Shown: piece after piece, positions 7,528 through 64,000 of the stretch
Position numbering within the stretch: position 1 is the stretch's first letter
Layout of the letters: the number at the start of each line of letters is the position of its first letter
NCBI GenBank assembly: GCA_947500385.1
Contig: CANMSA010000011.1
Location: forward strand, 124,001 to 188,000
DNA from: an uncultured Flavobacteriaceae bacterium
Lineage (GTDB): Bacteria > Bacteroidota > Bacteroidia > Flavobacteriales > Flavobacteriaceae
DNA: 64,000 bases
Reading direction: 5' to 3'
Translations under genes and position numbers: made by a program
Notes under the pieces: model-generated
What the model was told of the DNA's origin: nothing
Seen by the model: the letters and a program-made list of their open reading frames with translations, nothing else
Database searches by the model: none

Positions 7528-7622
7528 TGGAGAAAGGACAATATTATGACATCAAAGCAGGCTTTGATGGCCGAAACAAAAACGCACTCGATAGTAAAGA
7601 AAAAACGATAAATACGAACCAA

Positions 7623-9158: not shown

Positions 9159-9174
9159 ACTAACTTTTACGATT

Positions 9175-10755: not shown

Positions 10756-10770
10756 GAATATATGTTAATG

Positions 10771-10799
10771 AAAAAGGCTGTTTTACACAGCCTTTTTTT
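10771..10799 (+). terminator. Rho-independent terminator after the SusE-like gene
   Basis: Stem AGGCTGT / ACAGCCT with a five-base loop, extended by an A-run before and a T7 run after it. It ends 18 bp before the amylase start, so amylase expression needs read-through or its own promoter. Confidence 0.85.
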
Positions 10800-10816
10800 A
10801 ATAATACCGCAAGCTC

Positions 10817-14886: not shown

Positions 14887-15019
14887 GGGCTTCAAAACAG
14901 TTGCTAAAAAAGAGGCATGATGTAGCCGAATTCGCCCATTCTCGTTAAAATCAATTTTACGGTGTGCAGCAGTGTCAGGGACCGAAAAAAGTTGAAATGA
15001 CTTCATTAAAACCATCCAT

Positions 15020-16879
15020 ATGAAAATGCTGCGCAGCCTTATTTTTATACTATCTTTTGGAATGCCGTTGACCTTTATGGCCCAATCGACCATTGAACGG
15101 GTAGAACCTCCCAATTGGTGGGTGGGCATGAAGTACAATGAAGTGCAGCTGTTGGTTTACGGGAAAGAAATAGGTACTTATGAAGCATCTTTGAAAATGC
15201 ATGAAGGTGTCACTTTGAAGGAAGTAAAACGGGCACCAAATCGAAACTACCAATTTTTGACCCTGACGATAGCGGCCGATACAAAGCCTGGCAACATTCA
15301 GTTGTTATTTTCTAGAAAGGGAAAAAAAAGGATCAAATACGACTATCCCATTTTACAAAGAAACCCTGCTCGGAAAACCATAAAGGGTTTTGACAATTCA
15401 GACGCGATCTATCTCATAACTCCGGATCGCTTCGTAAACGGGGATCCATCGAATGATACCATCGAAGAATTACAGGAAAAAGCCGACCGCACCCTTAAGG
15501 GCGGGCGCCATGGTGGAGATGTCGCAGGAATTTTGAAAAGTCTGGATTATATAAAGGATTTAGGGTTCACGGCCATTTGGATGAATCCCATACTCGAAAA
15601 TGACATGAAGGAATACAGCTACCATGGGTATTCCACCACGGATTTCTACAAAGTAGATCCCAGGTATGGCAGCAACGAATCTTTTAGGAATTTATGCCAA
15701 GAAGCAAAAAACAAGGATATGAAGGTCATTATGGATATGATCGCCAACCATTGCGGCTTAGATCATTGGTGGATGCAGGACCTTCCCTTTAACGATTGGA
15801 TCAATCAATGGCCAGAATATACACAGACGAATCATAAAAAAACCGTCATCTTGGACCCTTATGCCGCAAAAATAGACCGCAAGCAATTTTTTGATGGTTG
15901 GTTTGTACCCACCATGCCCGATTTAAACCAGCGCAATGCTTCTATGGCAACATATTTGATTCAAAATACCCTTTGGTGGATCGAATATGCGGGGATTTCC
16001 GGCATACGAATGGATACCTATCCCTATCCCGACATGTACTTTATGCGTGATTGGACCAAAGCTGTCATGAACGAGTATCCCGATTTTAATATCGTGGGAG
16101 AAGAATGGGTGACCAGGCCGACCATCGTGTCGTATTGGCAACAGGGCAAGAAGAACGCCAATGGCTATACTTCCTATTTAAAAAGCCTAATGGACTTTCC
16201 CCTACAAAATGCCTTGGTAACGGCACTGAACAAAGAGAAAACCTGGGCCTCTTCTTGGACAGATCTATACGAGACCCTTGCGCAAGATTATCTGTATCCA
16301 GCACCGAACGACCTGGTCGTTTTTCCCGACAATCATGACATGAGCCGTATTTACACACAGCTGAACGAAGATTTTGATAAGTACAAAATGGCGCTTGTAT
16401 ATACCGCTACGATACGAGGAATTCCACAATTCTACTATGGTACGGAGGTCTTGATGACCAATTCCGGTACCGAAGATCACGGCGTTATTCGCTCCGATTT
16501 CCCGGGAGGTTGGCAAGGGGATGAAATCAACGCCTTCTCTGAAGAAGGCCTTTCGGACAGCCAAAAAGAAGCAAAAGCCTTTGTAAAGAAACTTTTGAAC
16601 TGGAGAAAGACCGCCTCGGTAATACACACGGGCAAACTGCTTCATTTTGCCCCAGCAAACACCAATGAAGTTTATGTATTTTTTCGGTACGATGATACAG
16701 ATAAGGTTATGGTCGTTTTAAGCAAAAACGATGAGGATGTCTCTTTGGACTTAAAACCCTACCAAGAAATATTGGAAACACCGCTAACCGGTAAAGATAT
16801 TCTGAGCGGTAGTTCGTATGTTGACCAGAACGCCATTTTGGTGAAGGCGAACAGTGCGATGATTATTGAATTGCGATAG
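15020..16879 (+). CDS. SusA-like GH13 neopullulanase/cyclomaltodextrinase
   Basis: The 619-residue protein has a cleavable signal peptide (MPLTFMAQ, cleavage near 21) and an N-terminal immunoglobulin-like domain of the cyclomaltodextrinase type (about 25-115, starting VEPPNWWVGM). The GH13 barrel contains DMIANHCG, nucleophile Asp332 in GIRMDTYPYPD, acid/base Glu361 in IVGEEW and Asp440 in PDNHDM. A C-terminal beta domain ends at the natural stop. There is no T9SS tail and no lipobox, so it is probably periplasmic, as SusA is. It would degrade imported maltodextrins, cyclodextrins or pullulan fragments. The 133-bp gap before it shows no obvious operator. It converges with the LacI gene 11 bp downstream. 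Confidence 0.9.
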   Translation: MKMLRSLIFILSFGMPLTFMAQSTIERVEPPNWWVGMKYNEVQLLVYGKEIGTYEASLKMHEGVTLKEVKRAPNRNYQFLTLTIAADTKPGNIQLLFSRKGKKRIKYDYPILQRNPARKTIKGFDNSDAIYLITPDRFVNGDPSNDTIEELQEKADRTLKGGRHGGDVAGILKSLDYIKDLGFTAIWMNPILENDMKEYSYHGYSTTDFYKVDPRYGSNESFRNLCQEAKNKDMKVIMDMIANHCGLDHWWMQDLPFNDWINQWPEYTQTNHKKTVILDPYAAKIDRKQFFDGWFVPTMPDLNQRNASMATYLIQNTLWWIEYAGISGIRMDTYPYPDMYFMRDWTKAVMNEYPDFNIVGEEWVTRPTIVSYWQQGKKNANGYTSYLKSLMDFPLQNALVTALNKEKTWASSWTDLYETLAQDYLYPAPNDLVVFPDNHDMSRIYTQLNEDFDKYKMALVYTATIRGIPQFYYGTEVLMTNSGTEDHGVIRSDFPGGWQGDEINAFSEEGLSDSQKEAKAFVKKLLNWRKTASVIHTGKLLHFAPANTNEVYVFFRYDDTDKVMVVLSKNDEDVSLDLKPYQEILETPLTGKDILSGSSYVDQNAILVKANSAMIIELR

Positions 16880-29500: not shown

Positions 29501-29914
29501 GAACAGGTAATCAACCAAGCCATTGTAAAACAGGCGACTATTTCAGAGTCGGTGGTCGCGATTAACGAAGGTGGTGGTAAATTCACAATTAAGAAACTAC
29601 CAAGTAGAACCCAATTATCATGTATTTGTAGTATTAGTTGTGCAGATATCAACCAAGATGGACATACCGACCTCATAATGGGAGGTAATAATTTCGAATT
29701 TAAACCGCAGTACTCTAGACTCGATGCCAGTTATGGAGAGGTGTTGTTGGGCAACGGTAAGATGGAATTTGAATGGCAAGACCATACAAAAAGTGGTTTT
29801 TTCATTCGCGACGAAATCAAACACTTGAAACAATTTAAAGACAAAAAAGGCAATCGCTATTTAATTGCTGCTATCAATGATGCAGAACCAAAGATTTTTA
29901 AAATCGATGAATAA
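26552..29914 (+). CDS. VCBS/FG-GAP repeat lipoprotein with ASPIC/UnbV domain (copy 2 of 3)
   Basis: The 1120-residue paralogue of the preceding protein has a lipoprotein signal ending FSSC (Cys22). The same plan is present: calcium-loop blades (DINNDGLPDIYM, DVNSDGLLDLYV, DYDKDGDLDAYI), an ASPIC/UnbV segment near 529-600 (FAIGTTLKLYHG to DSLRVIWPDD), then further blades and a C-terminal KIFKIDE end. The ATG lies in a TAATG overlap with copy 1, so translation is coupled. The copies are clearly divergent, which argues for distinct ligands or subunits rather than a recent duplication. Function is unknown. Confidence 0.85.
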   Translation: MRTTAAKELLGFFTLLLLFSSCNEKTASTDTLKNEEQATLFNALSPERTGIDFANTVKNQKDFNIFKYRNFYNGGGVAIGDINNDGLPDIYMTANMGPNKLYLNKGDLRFEDISEKAGVTGNKPWSTGVTMVDVNSDGLLDLYVSNAGNMKGNNHDNDLYINNGDLTFTEKAKEYNLAETGFTTHATFFDYDKDGDLDAYILNNSNIPVSSLGYAEQREVRAQDWEGVPKIFRGVGDMLLRNDDGKYVDVSEEAGIYGSLIGFGLGVMVSDFNGDLFPDLYVSNDFYERDYLYINQKDGTFNEELQDWTAHLSLSAMGIDMADINNDGNADIFITDMLPEAEERVKSVMEFEAYTVFNLKQNKDFSQQYIQNTLQLNNGNGTFSEVAYYSGVSATDWSWAGLLFDMDNDGLRDIFITNGVNHDLTDLDFVDFFANEIIQKMALTGKKESIDSIINKMPIKPQPNFTYRNNGDITFDNVSNEWGLGIPSLSNGTAYGDLDNDGDLDLVVNNVNMQAFVYENRTNSLRKNNYIKIKYEGQGKNQFAIGTTLKLYHGTNIVVQELIPSRGFQSSMDYTMTIGLGATTTIDSLRVIWPDDFTQLLTQVEANQTLQLKRSAATEPYKIPKIKASKPLLEAIENTRLLAHKENSYTDFDYEGLIYKQLSQEGPAMAIGDIDADGNEDIYIGGAKGQAGIIYKHSQKGMVTPKMQTAFENDKSQEDTAAAFLDADNDGDLDLLVGTGGNEIGERSRYRTKLYLNDGKGTFTKSGTPLPATFKNISVIAPYDFDQDGDDDVFIGSRSVVGTYGIDPDHLFLVNNGDGTFSDASERFAYDIKDAGMVTNAVWADMDGDDKKDLISVSEWGTPLIFKNSGRRISKMPSSLDSLYGYWNVVEAADLDNDGDNDLILGNQGSNVHYKTTKENPMKMWINDFDNNGTLEQIITQSNNGKDYPLHQKKELTAQIVSLKKRTLKASEYAKKTIQELFPEQVINQAIVKQATISESVVAINEGGGKFTIKKLPSRTQLSCICSISCADINQDGHTDLIMGGNNFEFKPQYSRLDASYGEVLLGNGKMEFEWQDHTKSGFFIRDEIKHLKQFKDKKGNRYLIAAINDAEPKIFKIDE

Positions 29915-32900
29915 GCTAGGCATTCTCTTCCTCCTTTTTTTGGCAATTAGCTGCGACACCCAGCAACCCCGGGTTTTTAGCAATCCAGACGCGGCTATAA
30001 CAGGGATTGACTTTGCCAATACCCTGACCGAAACAGATGAGCTGAATATCCTAGATTATCTATATTTCTATAACGGAGGTGGCGTAGCTATCGGGGATGT
30101 GGATAACGATGGCTTGCCCGACATTTTTTTCTCGGGAAATCAGGTGAAGAACAAACTATACCGCAATAAAGGGAATCTTACTTTTGAAGATATCACCCAC
30201 ACCGCAGGAGTCGCCGGCAACAGCACTTGGAATACAGGCACGGTTATGGGCGATGTTAATGGCGATGGTTTGCTTGATATTTATGTTTGTGCAGTGGTCG
30301 GCATCAAAGGCTTTAATGGGTACAATGAACTTTATATCAACAACGGCACCGATAGTTCGGGCGCGGTTACCTTTACCGAAAGTGCCGCCAAGTATGGTTT
30401 GGATTTTGATTCGTACAGCTCCTCCGCGGCTTTTCTTGATTACGATTTAGACGGGGATCTAGACATGTACTTGCTCAACCATGCGGTACACACACAAGAA
30501 TCGTTCGGTAATGCGGAACTGCGCCGCAAACGGGATTTTCAAACAGGTGATAAACTGCTACGCAACGATGGGGGAAAGTTTACAGATGTAAGTGAAGAAG
30601 CCGGTATATACGGCGGTATAAATGGCTATGGGCTTGGAGTCGCGGTAGCCGACTTTAATCAAGATGGTTATCCTGACATCTATGTAGGGAATGATTTTCA
30701 TGAAGATGATTACTATTACCTGAACAAAGGCGATGGTACTTTCGAGGAAAGCCTCCGAACCTATTTTGGTCATACAAGTCGGTTTTCAATGGGGAACGAT
30801 GTAGCCGATATCAATCATGACGGTTGGCCCGATATCATGTCCTTGGATATGTTGCCCGAAGAAGAAAAAGTCTTAAAAGAGTCTGAAGGAGATGACAACC
30901 CACAGACCCAAAAAATGCGAACCGAACGTTTTGGGTACTACTACCAGTATACCCGAAACATGCTTCATATAAATCGCAAGGGAAAAGCATATCAAGAAAC
31001 GGCTTTGATGAGTGGTGTCGCCGCGACAGATTGGAGTTGGAGTGCCCTTTTTGCCGATTATAATCAGGACGGCGAACAAGATATTTTTGTATCGAACGGT
31101 ATTCCCAAACGCCCGAACAATATTGATTTTGTAGATTTTGTTTCGAACGGACAGATTCAAAAAAAAATAGACAATACGAAACTCGTAGATCAGGAAGCAC
31201 TCAACTTAATGCCTTCGGGAAAGACCCACAACTACGTTTTCCAAGGCACTGGAAGCCTTGGATTTGAGGATCGATCGAGCAACTGGATCTCAAACGATAC
31301 GTTGGTCTCGGGAGCAACGGCAATGGCAGATTTGGACAATGACGGCGATTTGGATATTGTCACCAATAACCTGGATCAGACGGCCTCGCTCTATATCAAT
31401 GAGACCAATGAAAAGGCCAATTATCTAAAACTAAGGCTGCAATTCTCTGCTAAAAACAATTTCGGAATAGGCGCCAAAGTATTTTCCTATCACGACGGTA
31501 TGCTGCAATACAAAGAACTCTACACTGCCCGGGGGTTTCAAGCCTCTTCGGAACCAGTAGTACATTTTGGCTATGGAGCTACCCCCCAAGTAGATTCCCT
31601 CAAAATTGTTTGGCCCGATAATCGCGCCCAAATACTACGAAAGGTTGCTACCAACCAAACTTTAGTGGTAACTCCCAGCGAAACATTCGAATTTGACCAT
31701 GCAACACTTCTCCCGAAAGAAAAGAAGGTTTTTACCAAAATACCAGGTAATTTGGGAATCGACTTTCTACACAAAGAAGATTCCTATATAGATTTCAACC
31801 GTCAAAAATTAATCCCTTATCAAGTCTCCGACCGTGGCCCCGCCATCGCGGTAGGAGACCTAAACGGAGACGGAAGGGACGACGTCTTTTTTGGAGGTAG
31901 CAAATACCTTCCTGCCCAAGTATTTGTTCAAAACGATACCGCTTTTACCCTTTCCTCCTTTCCCAGTATTGTTAAGGATTCGATAAAGGAAGACGTTGTG
32001 GCATTCATTGAAGACCTGGATCAAGATGGTAGGAACGATTTGCTTGTAGGGACTGGTGGTGCCGACTTTTTCCAAGAAATGAAGCCGCTATTGGACTCCT
32101 ATTACAAGGCTTCCGACAGTACATTTCAAAAGGGGGCCTTGCCTGCAAATTTTGGAAACACCTCTGTCATTGCTCCCCACGATTTTGATGGTGACGGGGA
32201 TTTGGATCTTTTTTTGGGGAACCAAGCAGTGTCCAACGATTTTGGGAAAACCCCGGTGTCCGTTCTGTTGCAGAACGAAATGGGGGCCTTTACACCGGTA
32301 CACAATCCCGACCTGCAAGCTGCCGGAATGATTACCGATGCCATTTGGGACGATTTTGATGGGAACGGCACAAAAGACCTCATCCTAATAGGAGAATGGA
32401 TGGCACCTCTCTTCTTTAAAAACACCAATGGCGAACTGGTCAAAACAGAGGTAGGTATTGACCATTTAAAAGGGCTTTGGCAAGCAATCACACCATTTGA
32501 TATTGACCAGGATGGCGATACCGACTATCTTGTCGGGAATTGGGGCAGCAATACCAAACTCAAGGCCAGTGAAGAAAACCCCCTTCAATTGTTTTATGGC
32601 GACTTCGATAAAAATGGGCAAAGTGAAACCATCACCACACAAGAAAAAAATGGCAGGTATTACCCCTTGGAAGGATTGAAAGAAATGGCTTCCCAATTGG
32701 TATTCTTAAAGAAAAAATTCAATACAAATAGTGATTTTGCCGGAAAGGATATTACTGAAATCCTAGATAAGGAATTGTTGGAAACAGCTACTGTTTTAAC
32801 GGTAAACGAACTGCGCTCCGGGGTTCTAAAAAACGAAAACGGACGGTATGTGTTCGTTCCTTTTGAAAAAGATTTACAGACCGCGCCGATAACGGCCTTT

Positions 32901-33164
32901 GCCACCTTTGATTTTGATGGTGACAAAAAAACCGAAGTACTTGTAGGCGGCAACTACTTTGGCGTAAAGCCATATCATGGGCGTTTCGATTCCTTTCCCG
33001 GCGCCTTGATAAATGATGAAAAAAATGTAATTTTGGGCGATGAAATCGGTTTGCGATTTATGAATAAATCGATACGGCATCTTGATATCATCTCCCTGAA
33101 CAACCAATCATATTTGTTGGTGACCATCAACAATGACCAAGCACAATTGTATCAAATAAATTAA
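29907..33164 (+). CDS. VCBS/FG-GAP repeat lipoprotein with ASPIC/UnbV domain (copy 3 of 3)
   Basis: The protein is 1085 residues from the ATG at 29907. I chose this start because it gives a lipoprotein signal (MNKLGILFLLFLAISC, Cys16) and an 8-base overlap with the end of copy 2. The frame is open to an ATG at 29865, but the extra residues precede the signal and overlap coding sequence of copy 2. Blades include DVDNDGLPDIFF, DVNGDGLLDIYV and DYDLDGDLDMYL, and the ASPIC/UnbV segment is near 504-571 (FGIGAKVFSYHDG to VDSLKIVWPD). All three copies share the sequence around GVxATDWSWxxLxxDxxxDG. It precedes the haloperoxidase-like gene by 4 bp. Confidence 0.85.
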   Translation: MNKLGILFLLFLAISCDTQQPRVFSNPDAAITGIDFANTLTETDELNILDYLYFYNGGGVAIGDVDNDGLPDIFFSGNQVKNKLYRNKGNLTFEDITHTAGVAGNSTWNTGTVMGDVNGDGLLDIYVCAVVGIKGFNGYNELYINNGTDSSGAVTFTESAAKYGLDFDSYSSSAAFLDYDLDGDLDMYLLNHAVHTQESFGNAELRRKRDFQTGDKLLRNDGGKFTDVSEEAGIYGGINGYGLGVAVADFNQDGYPDIYVGNDFHEDDYYYLNKGDGTFEESLRTYFGHTSRFSMGNDVADINHDGWPDIMSLDMLPEEEKVLKESEGDDNPQTQKMRTERFGYYYQYTRNMLHINRKGKAYQETALMSGVAATDWSWSALFADYNQDGEQDIFVSNGIPKRPNNIDFVDFVSNGQIQKKIDNTKLVDQEALNLMPSGKTHNYVFQGTGSLGFEDRSSNWISNDTLVSGATAMADLDNDGDLDIVTNNLDQTASLYINETNEKANYLKLRLQFSAKNNFGIGAKVFSYHDGMLQYKELYTARGFQASSEPVVHFGYGATPQVDSLKIVWPDNRAQILRKVATNQTLVVTPSETFEFDHATLLPKEKKVFTKIPGNLGIDFLHKEDSYIDFNRQKLIPYQVSDRGPAIAVGDLNGDGRDDVFFGGSKYLPAQVFVQNDTAFTLSSFPSIVKDSIKEDVVAFIEDLDQDGRNDLLVGTGGADFFQEMKPLLDSYYKASDSTFQKGALPANFGNTSVIAPHDFDGDGDLDLFLGNQAVSNDFGKTPVSVLLQNEMGAFTPVHNPDLQAAGMITDAIWDDFDGNGTKDLILIGEWMAPLFFKNTNGELVKTEVGIDHLKGLWQAITPFDIDQDGDTDYLVGNWGSNTKLKASEENPLQLFYGDFDKNGQSETITTQEKNGRYYPLEGLKEMASQLVFLKKKFNTNSDFAGKDITEILDKELLETATVLTVNELRSGVLKNENGRYVFVPFEKDLQTAPITAFATFDFDGDKKTEVLVGGNYFGVKPYHGRFDSFPGALINDEKNVILGDEIGLRFMNKSIRHLDIISLNNQSYLLVTINNDQAQLYQIN

Positions 33165-50569: not shown

Positions 50570-51886
50570 ATGCCACTTGCTATTGTTGTCCTAGGAATTA
50601 TTCTTCTTTTTATCCTCATTGCCCAATTTAAGTTAAACGCTTTTATTGCTTTTATAATCGTCTCGCTCTTTGTAGGGGTTGCCGAAGGCATGCAAGTACT
50701 GCAGGTTGTAGAATCAATACAAACAGGGCTTGGAAAAACCCTCGGTGGCCTTATCATGATTCTTGGACTGGGTGCCATGCTGGGAAAATTAGTGGCCGAC
50801 AGCGGTGCGGCGCAAAAAATCACCACAAAACTCGTTGCTAAATTCGGAAAAAAGAACATTCAATGGGCCGTTGTGCTTACTGGCTTTATCGTGGGTATTC
50901 CTATGTTTTACACGGTTGGTTTCGTTATTTTGATCCCGTTAGTTTTTACCGTAGCCGCGGCTACCGGCTTGCCATTAATATATGTTGGTTTACCCATGCT
51001 CGCTTCCTTGTCCGTCACGCACGGGTACTTACCCCCTCACCCTGCCCCTACCGGTATAGCGGTGATGTTCAAAGCAGATATTGGAAAAACCTTGTTGTAT
51101 GGTATTATCGTGGCCATCCCGGCAATCGTTGTAGCGGGACCATTATTTTCAAGGACCATTAAAAACATAAAGGCTACGCCTTTGAAGGAATTTTTAAACC
51201 CCAAGGTACTTACCGATGAGGAGATGCCCAGTACTTTTACTAGCATCGTGACAGCCTTGCTACCCGTAATCTTGATCGGAATTGCGGCAATATTGAATGT
51301 ATTGCTCCCTGATGGAAGTATGGCAAAAGAAGTAACCAGTGTCTTGGGAAATCCTGTGATAGCCATGCTTATCTCTGTTTTAGTGGCAATTTGGACTTTG
51401 GGCCTTGCCCGTGGTAAAAAAATGACAGCGGTCATGAATTCCGTATCTAGTGCTGTTGCAGGAATTACCATGGTCTTATTGATCATCGCAGGAGCCGGGG
51501 CCCTAAAAGAAGTCCTGATCGATAGTGGCGTGAGCGAGTATATTGGGAACATGCTAAAAGGCTCCAGTATTTCGCCGCTTATTCTGGCTTGGCTTATTGC
51601 AACGGTGATCAGAGTATGCGTTGGGTCGGCGACCGTTGCAGGGCTTACCGCGGCCGGTATTGCTTTGCCCCTTTTGGCGGGCTCCGACGTAAGTCCGGAG
51701 CTGATGGTTTTGGCAATTGGATCCGGAAGCTTAATGCTTTCTCATGTAAATGACGGAGGCTTTTGGCTGTATAAAGAGTATTTCAATCTCTCTGTAAAAG
51801 ACACCCTTAAAACTTGGACGGTTATGGAAACCACTGTTGGCGTGATGGGGCTTTTAGGCGTGCTGGTACTAGATGTCTTTATTTAG
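50570..51886 (+). CDS. GntP-family proton symporter, probable D-serine/D-threonine permease
   Basis: The 438-residue membrane protein has about 12 hydrophobic segments and matches the gluconate:H+ symporter (GntP) family, which includes gluconate, fructuronate and D-serine (DsdX) permeases. Family motifs include LGAMLGKLVADSGAAQ near 69-84, HGYLPPHPAPTGIAV near 150-165 and GSLMLSHVNDGGFWLYKEYF near 385-405. It leads a run of four genes, the next three being RidA-like, a D-threonine aldolase/D-serine dehydratase-type enzyme and an M19 dipeptidase. That context argues for D-serine or D-threonine rather than gluconate as substrate. Substrate choice cannot be proven from sequence. Confidence 0.85.
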   Translation: MPLAIVVLGIILLFILIAQFKLNAFIAFIIVSLFVGVAEGMQVLQVVESIQTGLGKTLGGLIMILGLGAMLGKLVADSGAAQKITTKLVAKFGKKNIQWAVVLTGFIVGIPMFYTVGFVILIPLVFTVAAATGLPLIYVGLPMLASLSVTHGYLPPHPAPTGIAVMFKADIGKTLLYGIIVAIPAIVVAGPLFSRTIKNIKATPLKEFLNPKVLTDEEMPSTFTSIVTALLPVILIGIAAILNVLLPDGSMAKEVTSVLGNPVIAMLISVLVAIWTLGLARGKKMTAVMNSVSSAVAGITMVLLIIAGAGALKEVLIDSGVSEYIGNMLKGSSISPLILAWLIATVIRVCVGSATVAGLTAAGIALPLLAGSDVSPELMVLAIGSGSLMLSHVNDGGFWLYKEYFNLSVKDTLKTWTVMETTVGVMGLLGVLVLDVFI

Positions 51887-51946
51887 AAGTTGTCGGAAAC
51901 AAGACCAAGTCTTTGTAATAAGTCTATAAACCTTAAATCAATTCAT

Positions 51947-52411
51947 ATGAACACACCTTCTAAACGCATTCAAGAGTTGGGCTTGGTCTTACCACCGGCT
52001 CCCCCTCCCGCCGGTTTGTACAAACCGGTACTGGTCGTAGAGAATTTTCTCTATGTGTCTGGACAAGGTCCTATGAATACCGACGGCAGCTTGTTTACCG
52101 GGCGTGTCGGCGACAATCTAAACCTGGAAGATGGGAAACGTGCCGCACGACAAGTGGCCTTGACCATGCTAGCCACGATTACGACCCATTTTGGGAACAT
52201 CGACCGGATCAAACGTCTGGTAAAAACACTGGGGATGGTGAATTGCACTCCCGATTTCAGCGACCAACCGTTGGTAATTAATGGATACAGCGAGCTCATG
52301 GCCGAAGTCTTTGGTCCAGATCATGGGGTGGGTGTACGCAGTGCGGTGGGGATGATGCTACCAGGGCAAGTAGCCGTTGAAATTGAAGCAATGTTCGAAC
52401 TTCATACATAG
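51947..52411 (+). CDS. RidA/YjgF-family deaminase
   Basis: The protein is 154 residues from the ATG at 51947. The frame is open to a TTG at 51890, but the leading residues lack the conserved start. RidA proteins release ammonia from reactive enamine/imine intermediates made by PLP-dependent dehydratases. The C-terminal pattern GVGVRSAVGMMLPGQVAVEIEAMFEL carries the Arg and Glu expected in the active site, and FLYVSGQGPMNTDG is also present. It is 6 bp before the D-amino acid enzyme gene, which produces exactly such an intermediate if it acts as a dehydratase. Confidence 0.88.
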   Translation: MNTPSKRIQELGLVLPPAPPPAGLYKPVLVVENFLYVSGQGPMNTDGSLFTGRVGDNLNLEDGKRAARQVALTMLATITTHFGNIDRIKRLVKTLGMVNCTPDFSDQPLVINGYSELMAEVFGPDHGVGVRSAVGMMLPGQVAVEIEAMFELHT

Positions 52412-52417
52412 GCCATT

Positions 52418-53530
52418 ATGAAAGATTCCAATTGGTATACCCTTAACGACCCTTCTAAAATCACTTCCCCTTCCTTGCTGCTCTACCCTGAAAGAATAGA
52501 AGAAAACATTCGTACCATGATTTCCATGTCGGGCGGATTTTCAACGCTCAGACCACACATCAAGACCCATAAAATGGCAGAAGTCATACAAATGCAGCAA
52601 CGGCATGGTATTCAAAAATTTAAATGCGCCACCATCGCAGAAGCCGAATTACTAGGACAATGTAATGCGGAAGACGTGTTGTTGGCCATGCAGCCCGTAG
52701 GTGCAAATATGGAGCGTTTCTTTGCACTGAAAGATCGTTATTCCGCTACCCGTTTCTCGACCCTGGTAGACAACGCCACTTCCATAGATCAGATTGCCAA
52801 AGCAGCTACTACAAAAAATACCCCCGTAGCGTTGTATCTTGATATTAATAGCGGTATGAACAGAACGGGTTGCAAACCAGATGAAAATGCCGTCGCATTA
52901 TATAGAAGTATGGAAGAACATTCTCATGTACAAGCTATGGGATTGCATGTATATGATGGCCATATTCGAGATACAGATCTTAGAGAGCGTACCCAGCGGT
53001 GTGAAGAAGCTTTTGACCAAGTGGTAAGGTTGAAGGCAGCTATTAAGAAAAATGGTATCATCGTTCCCAACCTTATCGCGGGAGGATCTCCCTCGTTTCC
53101 GATTCATTCCAAACGAAGTAATGTAGAGGCAAGCCCGGGAACCACTCTCTTCTGGGATGCGGGATATAGCGCCCGTTTTCCCGACATGCCTTTTTTACAG
53201 GCCGCAGTTTTGTTTACGCGCATCGTTAGCAAGCCAGCGGAAAATATTATCTGTTTTGATCTCGGCCATAAATCGGTCGCTCCCGAGATGAACTTCCCCA
53301 GAGTACAACTGCTGGGGTTGGAAAATAGTGAACAAATTGGCCAGAGTGAAGAACATCTTGTGGTAAAAACAGATCGAGCGAATATGCTACAGGTTGGCGA
53401 TGGGTTTTATGCGATCCCCATGCACATATGCCCCACAGTTGCAAAATATGACGAAGTATTTATCATCGAAAACAAACAACTGACCGATATCTGGAAGGTT
53501 GCCGCCCGAAACCAAAAAATAACCATTTAA
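52418..53530 (+). CDS. D-threonine aldolase / D-serine dehydratase-type PLP enzyme
   Basis: The 370-residue protein has the alanine-racemase-like fold III barrel with the PLP lysine Lys49 in RPHIKTHK, then SGMNRTGCKP and IAGGSPSFP, typical of the D-threonine aldolase/D-serine deaminase group. Near the C-terminus His336 and Cys338 (MHICPT) are at the zinc-site position; a His-x-Cys pair is described for eukaryotic D-serine dehydratases, whereas D-threonine aldolases usually differ. A D-serine dehydratase-like activity therefore looks a little more likely. It follows ridA by 6 bp and overlaps the M19 gene by one base (TAATG). Confidence 0.88.
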   Translation: MKDSNWYTLNDPSKITSPSLLLYPERIEENIRTMISMSGGFSTLRPHIKTHKMAEVIQMQQRHGIQKFKCATIAEAELLGQCNAEDVLLAMQPVGANMERFFALKDRYSATRFSTLVDNATSIDQIAKAATTKNTPVALYLDINSGMNRTGCKPDENAVALYRSMEEHSHVQAMGLHVYDGHIRDTDLRERTQRCEEAFDQVVRLKAAIKKNGIIVPNLIAGGSPSFPIHSKRSNVEASPGTTLFWDAGYSARFPDMPFLQAAVLFTRIVSKPAENIICFDLGHKSVAPEMNFPRVQLLGLENSEQIGQSEEHLVVKTDRANMLQVGDGFYAIPMHICPTVAKYDEVFIIENKQLTDIWKVAARNQKITI

Positions 53531-54594
53531 TGTTCATTTTTGATGCTCATTTAGACCTTTCCATGAATGCCATCGACTGGAACCGCGACCTAAGATGGTC
53601 TGTTGAAGCCATTCGCAAAAGTGAATTAGGCATGACCGATAAACCAGACCGTGGAAACAATACCGTTTCTTTTGAGGCAATGCGCAAGGGCAAAGTAGGG
53701 CTGTGTATGGCGACCCAAATTGCACGCTATGTAAAACCAACAAGTTCATTACCCGGGTGGAATTCCCCAGAACAAGCTTGGGCCCATACACAAGCACAAC
53801 TTGCTTGGTACCGAACCATGGAAACCGAGGGACACCTTACGCAGATTAGGAATCTTGAGCAGTTAGAAACACATTTGTCCCTTTGGGAAAAGCCTCCCGA
53901 ACAATTGCCCATAGGGTATATCCTAACTTTGGAAGGAGCCGATAGTATCGTAGACATCGGTTATCTTGAAAAATCGTACGAGCAGGGGCTCCGTGCTATT
54001 GGACCCGCACACTACGGGCCGGGCACCTACGCCCATGGCACCAACTCGGAAGGAGGTATCGGAACAAAAGGGAAATTGTTGTTGAAAGCGGTAGAACGAC
54101 TTAATATTATTTTGGATGCCACACACCTGTGCGACCAAAGTTTTTGGGAAACGATGCAGGTGTATAGTGGCCCCGTGTGGGCCAGTCATAACAATTGTAG
54201 GGCTTTGGTAAATCATAACCGCCAGTTTTCAGACGAACAACTAAGGGAACTTATCAATAGAAAAGCTATTATAGGGGTTGCCCTTGATGCCTGGATGATG
54301 GTACCCGATTGGAAGCGAGGGATTTCTACTCCACAAGAAATGGGGCTCACTTTGGAACGAATGATCGATAATATCGACCATATCTGTCAATTGGCCGGAA
54401 ACGCAGATCATGTCGGAATCGGTACTGATTTAGATGGTGGTTTTGGAACGGAACAATGCCCAAAAGACATCAATACGATCGCGGATCTTCAAAAAATACC
54501 CGCTTTGTTAAAGGCACGAGGGTACACCGAAGCGGAGATTGTGAAGATTATGCACGGGAATTTCCTTCGTTTTCTCAAAAGGGTTTGGGGATAA
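53530..54594 (+). CDS. M19 membrane-dipeptidase-family peptidase
   Basis: The 354-residue protein belongs to peptidase family M19 (renal dipeptidase). Metal ligands are visible: His7 and Asp9 in DAHLDLS, Glu near 135 in LTLEGAD, and His in DATHLCD and SHNNCR. It ends with the GIGTDLDGGFG segment. M19 enzymes accept dipeptides with a D-residue at the C-terminus, which fits the D-amino acid operon. It has no signal peptide, so it should act in the cytoplasm. The ATG overlaps the preceding stop codon (TAATG), so the four genes form one operon. Confidence 0.9.
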   Translation: MFIFDAHLDLSMNAIDWNRDLRWSVEAIRKSELGMTDKPDRGNNTVSFEAMRKGKVGLCMATQIARYVKPTSSLPGWNSPEQAWAHTQAQLAWYRTMETEGHLTQIRNLEQLETHLSLWEKPPEQLPIGYILTLEGADSIVDIGYLEKSYEQGLRAIGPAHYGPGTYAHGTNSEGGIGTKGKLLLKAVERLNIILDATHLCDQSFWETMQVYSGPVWASHNNCRALVNHNRQFSDEQLRELINRKAIIGVALDAWMMVPDWKRGISTPQEMGLTLERMIDNIDHICQLAGNADHVGIGTDLDGGFGTEQCPKDINTIADLQKIPALLKARGYTEAEIVKIMHGNFLRFLKRVWG

Positions 54595-57887: not shown

Positions 57888-60590
57888 ATGAACAAGAACT
57901 TTCCCCTAATCGGCTCATGGTTCCTATGTGTGTTATTTTTTGCACAAATAGGACTTCATGCCCAAGAAAACTGGTCGAACCCCGCCTCCTGGGCAAATGG
58001 TCGCGTCCCCATGACTAACGAGGATGTCACCATCCCGGCCAACAAGCAAATAGTACTGGACGTATCCCCTTCAAACATTGGCAACCTTCTTATTGAAGGC
58101 AGTCTCATTTTTGATGAAAAAGACCTTTCCCTTACCGCTAAGTCTATTTTAATAAAGGGCCTATTGCAAATTGGTACCGCTGCGCTTCCCTTTCAAAACA
58201 AGGCCACTATCACCTTAAACGGCCCTAAAAGCGATGACCCCCTTTACGGAGGACGCTTCTTAAGCACTATCGAGGGTGGCTCGCTTCAATTGTTCGGCGC
58301 TTCGGCCGCCAAGTTAAGCTGGGGACAGTTGGAGGGAACTGTGCAGCCCGGAGCGACCAAAATTGTTTTAGACCGGAATACAAACGGTTGGGAAGCAGGC
58401 GATAAATTGGCAATCGCGCCAAGCGGGTATGACCCTTTTGAGGCAGAAGAAGTTACCATCACGGCGGTTAACGGAAACGAGATTTCGTTTACACCAGCCT
58501 TACAATATCCACATTACGGGGAACTTCAAACCTATGAAGGCAAAACTTTAGATGAAAGAGCAGAAGTAGGCCTTTTAACAAGAAATATTAAGATACAAGG
58601 CGCGGCCGATTCCGAGGAACTTCGTTTTGGCGGGCATATTATGATTCTCAATGGTTCAGGGCCTATCAGCGTAGAAGGGGTAGAATTCTTTAAAATGGGG
58701 CAACCGGGAAATGAAGGCCGATATAGTTTCCATTGGCATATTGCCGGAGACCGCGAAGGTGATTTTGTTCGAAATACGAGTATTCATCATGCGTTACAAA
58801 GAGGTGTAGTACTGCACCGTACCGATAACGTAGTAATTGAAAATGTGGTAGCCTATCATATAAAAAACCATGCCTTCATTCCCGCGGAAGATGGCAATGA
58901 GGTAAACAATACCTTCAAAGACAATTTGGCCATGTTAATGCTACGGCCAGACGACGGTTTTTTCGCTTTCCCGGTGGAAGGGAAAGAAACCAAGCAAAGC
59001 CGGCAAGGTGAGCATAGGGTCGCGGGGTTCTGGTCGAGAAATCCGCATAACAATCTTATCGGCAACCACTCCGCCGGTTCTGAAAGGGGTGTTGGCTTTT
59101 TCTTTGACGGTTTTGCCAAAGACAGGATTTATAAGGAATTTGATGTACTTCCCAGAGAAATTGTTTTTAAGGACAATGTAGTACATTCTTGTTCGGTACC
59201 TGGTGCGAATAATAATGCGGTCACCAATGTCGCTACCTACGGACAGGTTGGGCATGGCCATGGTTTGTTTATTGATGGTTTCAAAAATGGGGACCTGATG
59301 TGGAAATTCAGCGATTTCACCGCGTATAAGAATGCCATGAGCGGGGTATGGAGCGAAATGCTCAATGCCACTTTTAGTAATTTTATTTTGGCCGATAATT
59401 CATCTGCTCTAATGTCCTCCAGATCCTATATCGAAGATGGTATCATCATCGGCCGATCAGAAAATACTATTGGAGGCCCCAATAGGGTTTTACGGGATGG
59501 CCATAAACGTGCGGGGTTCTATTCCATTGCTCAAGGAGGGCCAAAACAACCCAAATTTAAAAACGTCACCTTTGTAAACATCAACGCTGCAATAGGGGAT
59601 GAAGATGTTGCCGCCGCCGTCGTCGGCGAATCGGGCCATTACGGTGAAAACTATTTTGAAGGCATCAAACTCATCAACTCGCAGCCCATTTACATGCGTA
59701 CCAAAGGCTCCAAGAAAGATAGACCAACAGGGTCTTTTATATTGGACAAGGATGGTAGCTTAACCGGGTACGGGAAGCCAGTGATTGTAGTGCATGAAGC
59801 CTCTACCCTCATAAACGACAGTGCCATCTATCATGAAGATTGGCGCGCTTATGTGCTCGATGCCCAAAACATACTTCAGTTACAATTCGGAGATATTCCC
59901 TTTTACTTGGATATTAACTTAATCGATGAGGACAATACGCTTATCGGAGCCTTGCAATCGGGCAAAACCTTTCATTTTGGGGTAACGGGCAAAAACAGTT
60001 ATCAATTCCAAGGAGAATGGTCTGTTGATGAGGACGGCCAAGTCATTCGAATGCGAAGCATTCTTGAGCAGCAAGGCGACTGGGCCACCGTACGATATCC
60101 CTATCCATATAATGCGGTAAAACTCTTAGACGAAAACGAAGTCGAAATTGTTCCGGTTGCATCGCGCTCCGAACTGGATAACCAAAACAACACTTCTTAC
60201 TTTTTTGATAAGAACAACAAAGAAGTAGTAGTAAAGTTGGTGACCGGTGGATCTGGCGATGCGTATGCCCGAATAATTGCGGGCGAGGGAATCGACGTAG
60301 GTGATGGTATTACCAATGCCGAAAATTTTGAGGATGTTGTCAATGTTCGCATTACCCCTAATCCGCTGACGGAAACCTCTTCGTTAAACTATACATTGCT
60401 TAAAGAGCAATTTGTAGGGGTGGGACTGTTCGATGTTACTGGCCGAAAAATCAAAACGCTGTATGCGGAACAACAAGATCCTGGTAATCATACTATTCCG
60501 TTGGACAATCTCAATCTGCAAAGTGGTATATACCTAGTAAGCTTTCAGCTTGCCGATCAAAACATTGCAGTAAAAGTAATCAAACCTTAA
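57888..60590 (+). CDS. G8-domain/parallel-beta-helix protein with T9SS tail, CEMIP/TMEM2-like (copy 1)
   Basis: The 900-residue protein has a signal peptide to about residue 25 (GLHAQ). A G8-type domain (about 40-165) contains GNLLIEGSLIFDEKDLSLTA and GLLQIGTAALPFQNK. A right-handed beta-helix region (about 230-650) contains HWHIAGDREG (282-291), VVLHRTDNVVIENVVAYH and GFWSRNPHNNLIGNHSAGSE. A C-terminal type A T9SS sorting domain (about 821-900, ITPNPLTETSS to VIKP) ends it. The helix motifs resemble, from memory, the core of animal CEMIP and TMEM2, which degrade or bind hyaluronan. It should be exported and may act on an extracellular polysaccharide; that function is inferred. Confidence 0.85.
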   Translation: MNKNFPLIGSWFLCVLFFAQIGLHAQENWSNPASWANGRVPMTNEDVTIPANKQIVLDVSPSNIGNLLIEGSLIFDEKDLSLTAKSILIKGLLQIGTAALPFQNKATITLNGPKSDDPLYGGRFLSTIEGGSLQLFGASAAKLSWGQLEGTVQPGATKIVLDRNTNGWEAGDKLAIAPSGYDPFEAEEVTITAVNGNEISFTPALQYPHYGELQTYEGKTLDERAEVGLLTRNIKIQGAADSEELRFGGHIMILNGSGPISVEGVEFFKMGQPGNEGRYSFHWHIAGDREGDFVRNTSIHHALQRGVVLHRTDNVVIENVVAYHIKNHAFIPAEDGNEVNNTFKDNLAMLMLRPDDGFFAFPVEGKETKQSRQGEHRVAGFWSRNPHNNLIGNHSAGSERGVGFFFDGFAKDRIYKEFDVLPREIVFKDNVVHSCSVPGANNNAVTNVATYGQVGHGHGLFIDGFKNGDLMWKFSDFTAYKNAMSGVWSEMLNATFSNFILADNSSALMSSRSYIEDGIIIGRSENTIGGPNRVLRDGHKRAGFYSIAQGGPKQPKFKNVTFVNINAAIGDEDVAAAVVGESGHYGENYFEGIKLINSQPIYMRTKGSKKDRPTGSFILDKDGSLTGYGKPVIVVHEASTLINDSAIYHEDWRAYVLDAQNILQLQFGDIPFYLDINLIDEDNTLIGALQSGKTFHFGVTGKNSYQFQGEWSVDEDGQVIRMRSILEQQGDWATVRYPYPYNAVKLLDENEVEIVPVASRSELDNQNNTSYFFDKNNKEVVVKLVTGGSGDAYARIIAGEGIDVGDGITNAENFEDVVNVRITPNPLTETSSLNYTLLKEQFVGVGLFDVTGRKIKTLYAEQQDPGNHTIPLDNLNLQSGIYLVSFQLADQNIAVKVIKP

Positions 60591-60623
60591 TCTCTCCTCC
60601 TACTTAACCAAAACAACGATCCT

Positions 60624-63329
60624 ATGAAAATCCTTAAAGTAGGCATAAGTCTAGCATTGATACTGGTAATTTCCAGTACGGGGCTAGCACAAGAAAATTG
60701 GTCCAGCCCAAATAGCTGGCCTTCTGGAAACGTACCACTAGCGAATGAAAATGTAACCATTCCACCCGGTAAAACCATTTTACTCGATGTATCCCCTGCC
60801 GACTTGGGGGACCTTTTAATTGAAGGAAGTTTGATCTTTGAAGACAAAAACCTATCCCTTACGGCCCAAACCATTAAGGTAACGGGCTTGCTTCAAATAG
60901 GAACGCCCCAAAATCCTTTTCAGAACAACGCGGTAGTTACCCTAACGGGCCCCAAGGTAGACGAAGAAGTATTCGGAGGGCGTTTTCTTACAACGCTCTC
61001 GGGCGGATCTATTCAGTTGCATGGTGCAAGCGCCACCAAATTAAGTTGGGGACAATTAGAGGGTACGGTACAACCAGGAGCTTCTAAAATAACCCTTGAT
61101 AAAATGCCTGTTGGTTGGAAACCAGGGGATAAAATTGCTTTGGCTCCAAGTGGTTATGATCCCTTCGAAGCAGAAGAGCTCATCATCACCGCAGTGAACG
61201 GTAGGGATATCTCATTTAGCCCCCCACTACGGTTCCCACATTATGGAGAACTACAAGAATATGAAGGCAAAATACTAGATGAACGCGCCGAAGTAGGGAT
61301 GCTCACCAGAAATATTAAGATTCAAGGAGGAGCAGATTCTGAAGATATCAAGTATGGAGGGCATACGATGATCTTAAACGATTCGGGTCCAATTCATATA
61401 GAGGGGGTCGAGTTTACAAGAATGGGGCAACCGGGAATCGAAGCTAGGTACAATATGCATTGGCATTTGGCCGGGGATCGCGAAGGGGATTACATCAAAA
61501 ATTCCAGTATTCACAATAGCTTGCAACGCGGCGTTGTACTGCACCGAACCAATAACGTGCTGGTCGAAGATGTGGTTGCGTTCAATGTTCGCAACCATGT
61601 ATTTATTCCGGCGGAAGACGGTCCGGAAATCAACAATACGTTTCGACATAATTTGGCGATACTGGTGCGAAAGCCCGAAAAGGGCTTCTTCGCCTTTCCG
61701 AGAGATGGCGGGGGAGGAAGTAATCAAGGAGAACAACGTGTAGGGGGCTTTTGGATGCGAAACGTTCACAATAACCTGATCCATAACCATGTAGCAGGTT
61801 CGGAACGCGGTACCGGGTTCTTTTTCGATACTCGTGGGCGGAGTCGGGACTTTCGCGATATTGACCTGCTCCCTAGGGAAGTCGTTTTTGACGGTAATGT
61901 GGCCCATTCTTGTTCCGTTCCTGGAAATTTGGGGAATGAAGGTGTTTCCAACACGGCATTATATGGGCAAGTAGGCCATGGCCATGGCTTTTTCATGACC
62001 AAGTTTCAAAATGGAGATCTTATGTGGACCTTTAATAACTTTACGAGTTACAAGAACGCAATGAGCGGGGTATGGACTGAAATAACCAATGTAACGCTCA
62101 ATAATTTCATATCGGCAGACAATGCTATTGGGCTTTTGTCATCGGAATCATTCGTTGAGAACAGTCTAGTAATAGGACGATCTGCAAATACCATCGGAGG
62201 AAAGAATCGCCATTTGCGTCATGGTGACCGGAGAGCGGGTTATTATTCGATTGCCCAAGGAGGACGTAAACAACCAAAACTATCAAACGTTACTTTTATT
62301 GACATCAATAAAGATATTGAAGAAGGAAAAGTTGCAGCGGCTGTGGTCGGAAGTGGCGGGCATCGGGGAAAAAACTTTTTCAAGGGGATTCAACTGAAAG
62401 GGGAAACTCTGCCGGTTTGGATGAGCACCGGTGGCTCAAAGGGACGCGATGACAACTCTTCTTTTCTGTTGGATGAAGATGGCAGTCTTACAGGATATGA
62501 TAGGCCGGTACTGATAGCACACCCCTATTCTTCTTTCAAAAATGATGCAATTGAATACCGCGATGAATGGCAGGCATATATTGTAGAGGCCGATGGTGCC
62601 ATGCAACTCACAATGTATAGTATCGGGTTTAATTTAGAGCAAGAGGTATCCTTGATACGTGATTTTGATAAACTTCGAATACCCAAACAACAATGGGCGC
62701 ACCAACGGTATTTCAACTTTTTTGGAAAACAAGGATATACTGTGCTCGGGCAATGGGACATGGATGAAAAAGGGAACGCTTTGCAATTGCGCAGCGTACT
62801 GGAAAAAGAAGGGGAATGGACCATCCTAAAACACCCTTTCCCGTATACCGGAATCGAAGTGCTCGATAAGGAAGACCAACCGATTGCCGAGGTAAAAAGC
62901 CTGGCTGAACTCGAAAATGCACAAACGAATGCCTATTATTTTGATCCACAGCAGGGAGCCGTATATCTAAAAATGGTAACCAATTCAGAAGGGCTAGCCT
63001 GGGTAAATCTGATTCCACAAGGGGAAAAAACGGGAAACAACTTTGGCATCGAATACGGCGATGTGCGACAATTTGTTTTGGACGCACGGGTATACCCCAA
63101 CCCTATTACCGCCGATTCCAGATTGGAATATACGCTCTTGCAAGACCAAACTGTCGCCATTTCCATCTATGACATACTTGGGAGAAAAGTAAAGACATTA
63201 TTGGTAGAAGAACAAGAAGACGGCTTGCATAGCATTCCTATTGGGCAATATATGATGCAGTCGGGCACTTATATTTTGGACATCAACTTTTTGGTGAGTT
63301 CCTTGCCTATTAAAATTATCAAACCATAA
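60624..63329 (+). CDS. G8-domain/parallel-beta-helix protein with T9SS tail, CEMIP/TMEM2-like (copy 2)
   Basis: The 901-residue tandem paralogue of the preceding protein shares most residues in its N-terminal half by eye. A signal peptide ends near residue 22 (TGLAQ). A G8 domain carries DLLIEGSLIFEDKNLSLTA, and HWHLAGDREG is kept in the helix region with VLHRTNNVLVEDVVAFNVRNH. The T9SS sorting domain is at the end (VYPNPITADSRLEYTLLQ to KIIKP). The key motifs are intact in both copies, so neither looks decayed. It lies 33 bp after copy 1 and is probably in the same transcript. The two may act on different chain lengths or work as a pair. Confidence 0.85.
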   Translation: MKILKVGISLALILVISSTGLAQENWSSPNSWPSGNVPLANENVTIPPGKTILLDVSPADLGDLLIEGSLIFEDKNLSLTAQTIKVTGLLQIGTPQNPFQNNAVVTLTGPKVDEEVFGGRFLTTLSGGSIQLHGASATKLSWGQLEGTVQPGASKITLDKMPVGWKPGDKIALAPSGYDPFEAEELIITAVNGRDISFSPPLRFPHYGELQEYEGKILDERAEVGMLTRNIKIQGGADSEDIKYGGHTMILNDSGPIHIEGVEFTRMGQPGIEARYNMHWHLAGDREGDYIKNSSIHNSLQRGVVLHRTNNVLVEDVVAFNVRNHVFIPAEDGPEINNTFRHNLAILVRKPEKGFFAFPRDGGGGSNQGEQRVGGFWMRNVHNNLIHNHVAGSERGTGFFFDTRGRSRDFRDIDLLPREVVFDGNVAHSCSVPGNLGNEGVSNTALYGQVGHGHGFFMTKFQNGDLMWTFNNFTSYKNAMSGVWTEITNVTLNNFISADNAIGLLSSESFVENSLVIGRSANTIGGKNRHLRHGDRRAGYYSIAQGGRKQPKLSNVTFIDINKDIEEGKVAAAVVGSGGHRGKNFFKGIQLKGETLPVWMSTGGSKGRDDNSSFLLDEDGSLTGYDRPVLIAHPYSSFKNDAIEYRDEWQAYIVEADGAMQLTMYSIGFNLEQEVSLIRDFDKLRIPKQQWAHQRYFNFFGKQGYTVLGQWDMDEKGNALQLRSVLEKEGEWTILKHPFPYTGIEVLDKEDQPIAEVKSLAELENAQTNAYYFDPQQGAVYLKMVTNSEGLAWVNLIPQGEKTGNNFGIEYGDVRQFVLDARVYPNPITADSRLEYTLLQDQTVAISIYDILGRKVKTLLVEEQEDGLHSIPIGQYMMQSGTYILDINFLVSSLPIKIIKP

Positions 63330-63373
63330 AATAAGCGTTTCTTTTTTCAGTTGTAGGTATATAGTCCCTTTAA

Positions 63374-64000
63374 ATGGTTCGTAAAATTGTATGTATTGTA
63401 ATGGCCTATGCGGTATGGCTTTGTTGTATAACGACCCTATTGGGGCAAAGTCGCATACCAACAGAAAAGGTTGGTTCCAAAACAACAGTACTTACCGATC
63501 TTGTTGTTGAGAAAGGAGAACTTCTAGAGCTAAAGGTAGATTCTTTGTTGAGCCAGAGAATTATCGTTAAGGGAACTTTACGCGCCTATGACAAAGCTAG
63601 TATGGTAATCGTAGCAAATCAAATCGAGATAGATGGGGGTCGCTTCGAAGTCGGCACCAAAGAGAAGCCCCGTACCAATAGCTTTATGCTTTTATTAAAT
63701 GGGACATCTTTAAACCCGGGAAGCCTCATTGTAAAAAATAAGGGGCAATTGGTATTGAATGGTGTGGTAGCAAACCAAAACAAAGCAATCGATTTTGATA
63801 AAATGGAAATCGATAAGATTCCCATTCCTTCTAGACTGCTCACCGTCACCACAAACACGGTCGATCAATTCGGTTTTATCGAAATCGAAGAGGCGTCCAA
63901 GGTATCTCTTAGCGGTGTTCTGTTCCAAAATCTGGGCATAAAGGAAACCAAACCGGCCCTATCTTGGTTTGGAAAAACGCCTGCCGGCGCGATGCTTGAA
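63374..64000 (+). CDS. Third G8-type secreted protein, 5' part only
   Basis: The first 209 codons of a gene cut by the right edge begin at the ATG 63374. A signal peptide (LLGQS) is followed by a region resembling a G8 domain (IVKGTLRAYDKASMVIVANQIEI, then GGRFEVGTKEKP) and beta-helix-like strands (LVLNGVVANQNKAIDF). It is more distant from copies 1 and 2 and is probably the third gene of the same operon, 44 bp after copy 2. The C-terminus and any T9SS domain are not visible. Confidence 0.75.
   Translation, partial: MVRKIVCIVMAYAVWLCCITTLLGQSRIPTEKVGSKTTVLTDLVVEKGELLELKVDSLLSQRIIVKGTLRAYDKASMVIVANQIEIDGGRFEVGTKEKPRTNSFMLLLNGTSLNPGSLIVKNKGQLVLNGVVANQNKAIDFDKMEIDKIPIPSRLLTVTTNTVDQFGFIEIEEASKVSLSGVLFQNLGIKETKPALSWFGKTPAGAMLE

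Follow-up and report, generated by a model that had tools for sequence, protein, structure and literature searches.

Human TMEM2 (CEMIP2), which combines a G8 domain with a β-helix core, is the closest described relative of the proteins treated here, and three papers of 2023 are at odds on its catalysis (PMC10206443, PMC10474455, PMC10276149), while a 2026 review calls the mechanism of CEMIP incompletely defined (PMC13113925). Bacterial members of the CEMIP/TMEM2 family are already in Pfam, and no functional study of bacterial CEMIP-type proteins was found among the matches listed, the literature coverage being incomplete. Here we analyse a stretch of 64,000 nucleotides from an uncultured marine Flavobacteriaceae bacterium (contig CANMSA010000011.1, positions 124,001 to 188,000; hereafter the window), which closes with three genes on the same strand: gene A, gene B and a partner gene. 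Sequence, profile and predicted fold all mark genes A and B as homologues of human TMEM2, and both bear a set of histidine and glutamate residues that is conserved from bacteria to TMEM2. Our preferred reading, which we hold to be probable, is that they are exported β-helix enzymes with the fold of CEMIP/TMEM2, which would use a His/Glu pocket and probably depolymerise an anionic polysaccharide outside the cell, and that they are accompanied by a pseudoenzyme partner of the same fold.

Results

Tandem CEMIP/TMEM2-type genes with type IX secretion tails

Genes A and B are intact tandem open reading frames (ORFs), 55-56% identical to each other, and the motif HWHxAGDREG is found in both, as the initial annotation had described for two G8 paralogues of about 900 residues. 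The intergenic gaps are 33 bp between A and B, and 44 bp between B and the partner gene. The features of the operon are the following.

57888..60590, plus strand: gene A, CEMIP/TMEM2-type (P0001, 900 aa, stop included); ORF, Pfam, PDB sequence search and Foldseek
57987..58331, plus strand: G8 domain, gene A aa 34-148; Pfam 92.2 bits, E 3e-26
58626..59195, plus strand: CEMIP_beta-hel domain, gene A aa 247-436; Pfam 147.5 bits, E 6e-43
58731..58739, plus strand: His282-Trp283-His284, H-x-H of the candidate active site (TMEM2 His468/His470); alignment
58815..58817, plus strand: His310 of the candidate active site (TMEM2 His503); alignment
58887..58901, plus strand: Glu334 to Glu338 of the candidate active site (TMEM2 Glu526/Glu530); alignment
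60351..60584, plus strand: type IX secretion system (T9SS) type A sorting tail, gene A aa 822-899; TIGR04183 34.4 bits
60624..63329, plus strand: gene B, CEMIP/TMEM2-type (P0002, 901 aa, stop included); ORF and Pfam
60714..61058, plus strand: G8 domain, gene B aa 31-145; Pfam 97.2 bits, E 8e-28
61353..61916, plus strand: CEMIP_beta-hel domain, gene B aa 244-431; Pfam 148.1 bits, E 4e-43
61458..61466, plus strand: HWH of gene B, aa 279-281; sequence
63090..63287, plus strand: T9SS type A sorting tail, gene B aa 823-888; TIGR04183 30.5 bits
63374..64000, plus strand: partner gene, first 209 of 775 aa, running past the window end (L005:6375-8702); profile, model and alignment
63497..63766, plus strand: G8-like region of the partner gene; Pfam 38.8-39.3 bits, cut-off 22.9

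In both genes the G8 (PF10162) and CEMIP_beta-hel (PF24606) domains exceed their curated cut-offs of 22.9 and 27.3 bits, respectively, with CEMIP_beta-hel following G8. Both carry a TIGR04183 tail (cut-off 23 bits), and SprA, the sole T9SS component searched for, is present in the genome (SprA_N E 3.5e-131), so that the proteins qualify as T9SS type A cargo and the proposed T9SS export stands. Por_Secre_tail lies barely above its cut-off of 27 bits (27.9 bits in gene A, 27.5 bits in gene B), and the signal at the N-terminus of both proteins was judged by eye. A fourth gene with G8 is found elsewhere in the genome, solitary on contig 15; it is a CEMIP-type copy of 877 aa.

The predicted core matches that of human TMEM2

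When gene A was searched by sequence against solved structures, the human TMEM2 ectodomain (8c6i) was matched with E 2.6e-33, the only other row having E 0.97. The AlphaFold model of gene A (predicted local distance difference test, pLDDT, 86.6; predicted template modelling score, pTM, 0.82) again gave 8c6i as its best Foldseek match, with E 5.9e-35 and template modelling (TM) scores of 0.68 (query length) and 0.49 (target length). The second match, a capsule lyase, has E 7.4e-11 and lies 24 orders of magnitude behind; glycan lyases, glycosidases and phage tailspikes or depolymerases make up most of the 50 Foldseek matches listed. The kinship to CEMIP/TMEM2, which the initial annotation had proposed, is thus borne out by profile, sequence and model. 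Because the whole-chain root mean square deviation (18.7 over 1223 columns) is large, we claim agreement of the core and not a superposition of whole chains.

In the sequence alignment, query residues 152-157 stand opposite residues 165-334 of the human chain, which leaves about 170 residues without bacterial counterpart. Correspondingly, the lectin-like domain 1/GG that TMEM2 carries between G8 and helix was not found in genes A and B, either by alignment to 8c6i or by Pfam. The region missing from the bacterial protein holds the TMEM2 substitutions R265C, D273N and D286N, which change activity (PMC10206443), as well as His248/Ala303 and the GG domain of mouse TMEM2, described as relevant for activity (PMC10276149).

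A conserved candidate active site

The alignment used to assess conservation comprised the TMEM2 segment and 98 bacterial sequences, namely the two window proteins, 77 sequences found by scanning with patterns and 19 found by hidden Markov model (HMM) searches; the denominators below are the sequences with a residue at the position. Since the scan used patterns containing HWH and GGH, conservation across its 77 loci is partly selected, and the HMM-found set was therefore counted separately. Some of its 19 sequences duplicate a protein that the patterns had also found (e.g. L016 and L092), and eight more HMM matches from the genus (L011-L014, L017-L020) were left out of the alignment.

Among all bacterial sequences, His282, His284, His310 and Tyr279 are each found in 97/97, Glu334 in 98/98, Trp382 in 93/93 and Glu338 in 95/97, and the TMEM2 equivalents are all present (His468, His470, His503, Tyr465, Glu526, Trp584 and Glu530, respectively). 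In the HMM-found set alone, the three histidines and Tyr279 are kept in 18/18 each, Glu334 and Glu338 in 19/19, Trp382 in 16/16, His250 in 18/19 and Arg278 in 17/18. All 14 residues checked are present in gene A, in gene B and in the copy on contig 15.

In the gene A model, His282 and His284 lie on strand 281-288 and His310 on strand 307-313; Glu334 comes directly past strand 330-333, Glu338 in the next turn, and Trp382 on strand 379-383. We read these positions as consecutive rungs of one predicted sheet. The histidines would face outward, since hydrophobic neighbours alternate with them (F281/W283/I285; V307/L309).

A group of weaker CEMIP_beta-hel proteins (L015, L024, L025, L131-L133) forms a deep sister group. 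The HxH, His310 and Glu334 are kept in every scored HMM-found row, this group included where the residues exist.

The partner gene keeps the fold and has lost the pocket

Read past the window end, the third gene is complete (L005:6375-8702), with 775 aa and no internal stop. The initial annotation had taken it for the start of a third G8-type gene; a G8 gene does follow, yet a profile search gave neither a CEMIP_beta-hel (PF24606) nor a T9SS-tail match, so that we regard it as a divergent relative. Its assignment as a third CEMIP copy was rejected on the missing CEMIP_beta-hel match and on the pocket, which is not kept. The model of its orthologue at locus L036 (pLDDT 81.3) has 8c6i as best Foldseek match (E 2.2e-13), and a comparison of the partner and CEMIP-type profiles gives a match of 679 columns (E 3.6e-31). 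The partner gene is a divergent G8/β-helix paralogue of the same fold without the conserved pocket.

In nine partner sequences (seven orthologues, the window's own and that of genome G696), the residues aligned to His282 read SSSSHNLSK, to His284 FHQYVYAFT, to His310 DDADDDTDD, to Glu334 APSPGPNPM and to Glu338 GGAGGGAGG. Lone histidines occur in single orthologues (one each at 282, 284 and 328), and the full set in 0/9. Asn positions 346, 393 and 430 are retained in 9/9 and are presumably structural.

The partner follows a CEMIP-type gene at seven of the eight loci L036-L043, the remaining one (L041) stopping at a contig edge, and in genome G625. This linkage spans Pelagihabitans and its genus group, Croceitalea, Aquimarina and Allomuricauda, and in the Aquimarina locus (L042) the two genes overlap by 4 bp. 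Strong partner matches (E < 1e-100) were obtained in 3/299 family genomes: the window genome, G625 and G696. The last one gave no PF24606 match in a direct profile search, and an invariable tie of the partner to a CEMIP gene is rejected accordingly; its lone partner-type gene (L134:9115-11562, 815 aa) lies near thioredoxin-reductase-like and nitrilase-like ORFs, both named by eye. No description of such a pseudoenzyme partner was found in the searchable literature.

Distribution and phylogeny

Bacterial relatives are widespread but patchy. PF24606 was matched in 7/60 relatives, 13/299 family genomes and 5/395 phylum genomes, each total including the window genome, and in four of the nine other genomes of the genus. 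A scan of one-per-species genomes gave 133 encoding stretches, of which 80 relatives, corresponding to 77 loci, were retained; they belong to the Bacteroidota, Pseudomonadota, Deinococcota, Chloroflexota, Planctomycetota, Verrucomicrobiota, Acidobacteriota, Gemmatimonadota and Actinomycetota, and the Pfam domain was also matched in a Deinobacterium control genome. The suggestion that such a bacterial operon had not been described is thus right only in part.

A tree of 99 rows (96 different; second copies of L036, L037 and L039 left out) and a structure alignment of 50 of the 77 loci with two window rows were built. The partner-linked CEMIP-type genes form one clade (11 rows including L041 and the G625 copy; SH-aLRT 99). 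Because Croceitalea, Aquimarina, Allomuricauda, G625 and Pelagihabitans pacificus carry a single CEMIP-type copy ahead of the partner, we read the A/B tandem as a duplication inside the window genus; the gene A lineage has support 100 in this tree, which lacks the second copies of its relatives. The window proteins are not the nearest bacterial kin of TMEM2, as the TMEM2 segment scores mostly Erythrobacteraceae highest. TMEM2 itself sits on a long branch of unsure placement, and for both reasons no direction of transfer is claimed.

Neighbourhoods of the relatives and substrate clues

Distant relatives are found in degradative loci. In Flavicella sediminum (G011, L092 contig), two tandem CEMIP-type copies lie within roughly 60 kb of sequence that also holds sulfatases, GH43, GH3, GH78 and GH106 (glycoside hydrolase, GH, families), a 3-keto-disaccharide hydrolase and SusC/SusD. 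Altogether nine Flavobacteriaceae sulfatase loci were seen (Flavicella, three in Polaribacter, Nonlabens, two in Algibacter and two in further Flavobacteriaceae), and most of these loci also hold rhamnosidase or other glycosidase genes (GH78/GH106/GH43/GH3-type), assigned by Pfam or similarity. Sulfatase-cluster genes lie within 6 kb at 12/77 loci, namely eight of Flavobacteriaceae, three of the eight of Granulosicoccaceae and one of Erythrobacter, the last four being confirmed by Pfam. At the sulfatase density of the window genome (13 genes from 15 matches, two split pairs each being counted once), about 1.6 would be expected in those flanks, a crude figure that takes one genome's density and treats loci that are not independent. 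Ambiguous residues were coded as A in the neighbourhood analyses. The sulfatase and rhamnosidase contents would fit ulvan-like or rhamnan-sulfate polymers, ulvan being made of repeats of glucuronic or iduronic acid (GlcA/IdoA) and sulfated rhamnose (PMC8511951).

In the compact loci L108, L056, L070 and L076, a 592-aa protein without Pfam match (L108:6115-7893) recurs between GH78-type and sulfatase genes.

The window operon itself is, as far as annotated, not a polysaccharide utilization locus: it has no SusCD, sulfatase or carbohydrate-active enzyme (CAZyme) neighbours, and the closest of the tested SusC genes stops 36 kb upstream, with partly annotated ORFs between. In the window genome GH88/105 does not reach its cut-off, the single match having 20.3 bits against 26.6. 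The host is thus unlikely to grow on unsaturated uronides in the known way, and a nutritional use of uronate via lyase products is disfavoured. GH88/105 is over cut-off in six of the seven genomes with sulfatase-locus members, two of them weakly, while Polaribacter aestuariivivens (G707), which has a sulfatase-locus copy, gave no match, its genome completeness not being stated.

These data bear on the chemistry. That genes A and B are polysaccharide lyases, acting by β-elimination on a uronate polymer like chondroitinase B and the ulvan lyases, appears improbable to us: β-helix lyases (K1 capsule lyase, 7w1c/7w1d) do come next after 8c6i in Foldseek, and both the uronic acids of ulvan and the GH88/105 genes of most sulfatase-locus genomes would suit them, but the window genome and G707 lack such genes in the sense given above, and, of the two acidic residues that bind Ca2+ in chondroitinase B, TMEM2 is reported to have a single one, with no further suitable ligand (PMC10206443). 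Because of the two GH88/105 results, we lean weakly to hydrolysis by genes A and B.

Hyaluronan is an unlikely natural substrate. That the proteins degrade specifically hyaluronan or other animal glycosaminoglycans would be in keeping with their homology to CEMIP and TMEM2, but we give this reading very little credence: genes next to distant relatives suggest sulfated polymers that contain rhamnose, GH88/105 stays below its cut-off in the host genome, and the GG domain, important for hyaluronan cutting by mouse TMEM2 (PMC10276149), is absent. The link to hyaluronan drawn in the initial annotation thus finds no support. Its broader proposal, binding or cutting of a glycosaminoglycan-like polymer, is plausible in the light of the sulfatase/rhamnosidase loci of distant relatives, yet no such genes stand beside the window operon.

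Other genes of the window

Upstream of the operon lie a penicillin acylase and a D-serine-dehydratase-type group, and downstream an ABC-transporter-type ORF identified by eye. These flanking genes were set aside as parts of the system because no member of their clusters occurs within 6 kb at the loci of Aquimarina (L042) and Allomuricauda (L043). The divergent penicillin acylase (PF01804; 55405-57612), just upstream of gene A, has a cluster that recurs at L036-L040 (Pfam for the window and L040 copies), and in G625 by the sequence start only. Positions 50570-54594 hold a GntP permease, a RidA-like ORF, an alanine-racemase/D-serine-dehydratase enzyme and a dipeptidase-like ORF (the RidA-like and dipeptidase-like ORFs by eye), a compact D-amino-acid or dipeptide cluster of which several genes recur in loci of the genus. 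Farther upstream, SusC, SusD, SusE/F-type and cyclomaltodextrinase genes form a starch-type utilization locus with unannotated ORFs between (4462-16879), and an FG-GAP/ASPIC-UnbV repeat protein of 1099 aa (29865-33164) has ORFs similar in length at 23241 and 26552.

Discussion

We propose that genes A and B would be exported, through an N-terminal signal and the T9SS tail, as right-handed β-helix enzymes, whose substrate would be an extracellular anionic (sulfated and/or uronate) polysaccharide that is probably cut. The putative pocket on one face of the helix would comprise His282, His284, His310, Glu334 and Glu338, presumably surrounded by Tyr279, Trp382 and His250 and by the less constant Gln272, Arg278, Arg305 and His328. 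The partner is most likely a binding or scaffolding pseudoenzyme that would act with an active copy. Genes A and B are likely to be enzymatic.

Several points weigh against this proposal. The TMEM2 crystal-structure paper found no activity and calls the location of the active site open (PMC10206443), and a second one denies catalysis by human TMEM2 (PMC10276149), whereas a third 2023 paper affirms it (PMC10474455). In the HMM-found set the surrounding residues are less constant (Gln272 and His328 13/19 each, Arg305 13/18), and the outward orientation of the candidate-site residues is suggested by strand alternation, the one indication used. No CAZyme, sulfatase or SusCD was seen adjoining the operon, among ORFs partly annotated by profile. 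The flavobacterial copies L099, L105, L107/L140, L138 and L139 gave no seed match to sulfatase or glycosidase genes in the fetched stretches, sulfatases stand at only three of the eight Granulosicoccaceae loci and one listed Erythrobacteraceae locus, and the excess of sulfatases is measured against a crude expectation. Furthermore, the window clade is separate from the sulfatase-associated copies in the tree, so that carrying over their substrate class is an assumption.

T9SS cargo is often attached to the cell surface, and the proteins might instead be non-catalytic adhesins or glycan-binding proteins, the helix holding a polysaccharide for attachment or matrix and the conserved residues binding metal or sugar. 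The absence of catabolic genes around the operon, the partner that retains the fold without the pocket and the one laboratory that found no TMEM2 activity would all agree with such a role. We nevertheless consider it rather unlikely, since three His and one Glu are invariant from Chloroflexota to humans, which is typical of catalysis, and since distant relatives sit in degradative loci. Enzymes with a pseudoenzyme partner are the reading we retain.

A wider proposal can be made tentatively, with somewhat more doubt than belief. The HxH-His-Glu-xxx-Glu set (TMEM2 His468, His470, His503, Glu526 and Glu530) may be the catalytic site, possibly metal-dependent, of the whole CEMIP/TMEM2 family, and would then predate animals; bacterial members would be surface depolymerases of sulfated or uronate polymers, the animal GG domain an added part for substrate handling, and the window operon an enzyme-pseudoenzyme pair fixed in one clade. 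If true, this would define an uncharacterised bacterial depolymerase family and show where catalysis takes place in a human family of medical relevance. Given that catalysis by TMEM2 is contested, the residues conserved between bacteria and TMEM2 offer a short list of candidates in both, and the bacterial proteins make a tractable system, being minimal homologues that lack the accessory domain of the animal ones and lie, in some cases, in loci hinting at a substrate class.

Comparison with known systems

The β-helix polysaccharide lyases gave no significant sequence match to gene A in the solved-structure search. The K1 capsule lyase and the phage tailspikes share a parallel β-helix, glycan-active fold with gene A and are much weaker structural matches than 8c6i; chondroitinase B is of the same fold class, and its comparison with TMEM2 comes from PMC10206443. 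Fibrocystin/PKHD1, set beside by description, likewise has G8 followed by β-helix repeats (PMC13424714). It differs, together with PKHD1L1, in being a large multi-domain receptor.

Closer are the flavobacterial sulfatase-locus proteins. Those of Flavicella, Algibacter, Polaribacter and Nonlabens have the same pocket residues as the window copies, the Flavicella protein shows the same G8 and CEMIP_beta-hel succession, and a T9SS tail is present in Flavicella and Polaribacter. They differ in belonging to other clades, in being longer and in lying beside sulfatase and often glycosidase genes, with no partner gene matched in the fetched stretches.

CEMIP/KIAA1199/HYBID is a relative of TMEM2 according to the papers, and the comparison here was made with TMEM2. 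With human TMEM2/CEMIP2 (8c6i), the window proteins share the G8 and β-helix core and the signatures GGHxM, RYxxH[WF]H, HxT, GH, ExxxE and N. In contrast to TMEM2, they lack the lectin-like domain 1/GG of about 170 residues between G8 and helix and show no transmembrane anchor, and instead they carry a T9SS tail and have a pseudoenzyme neighbour.

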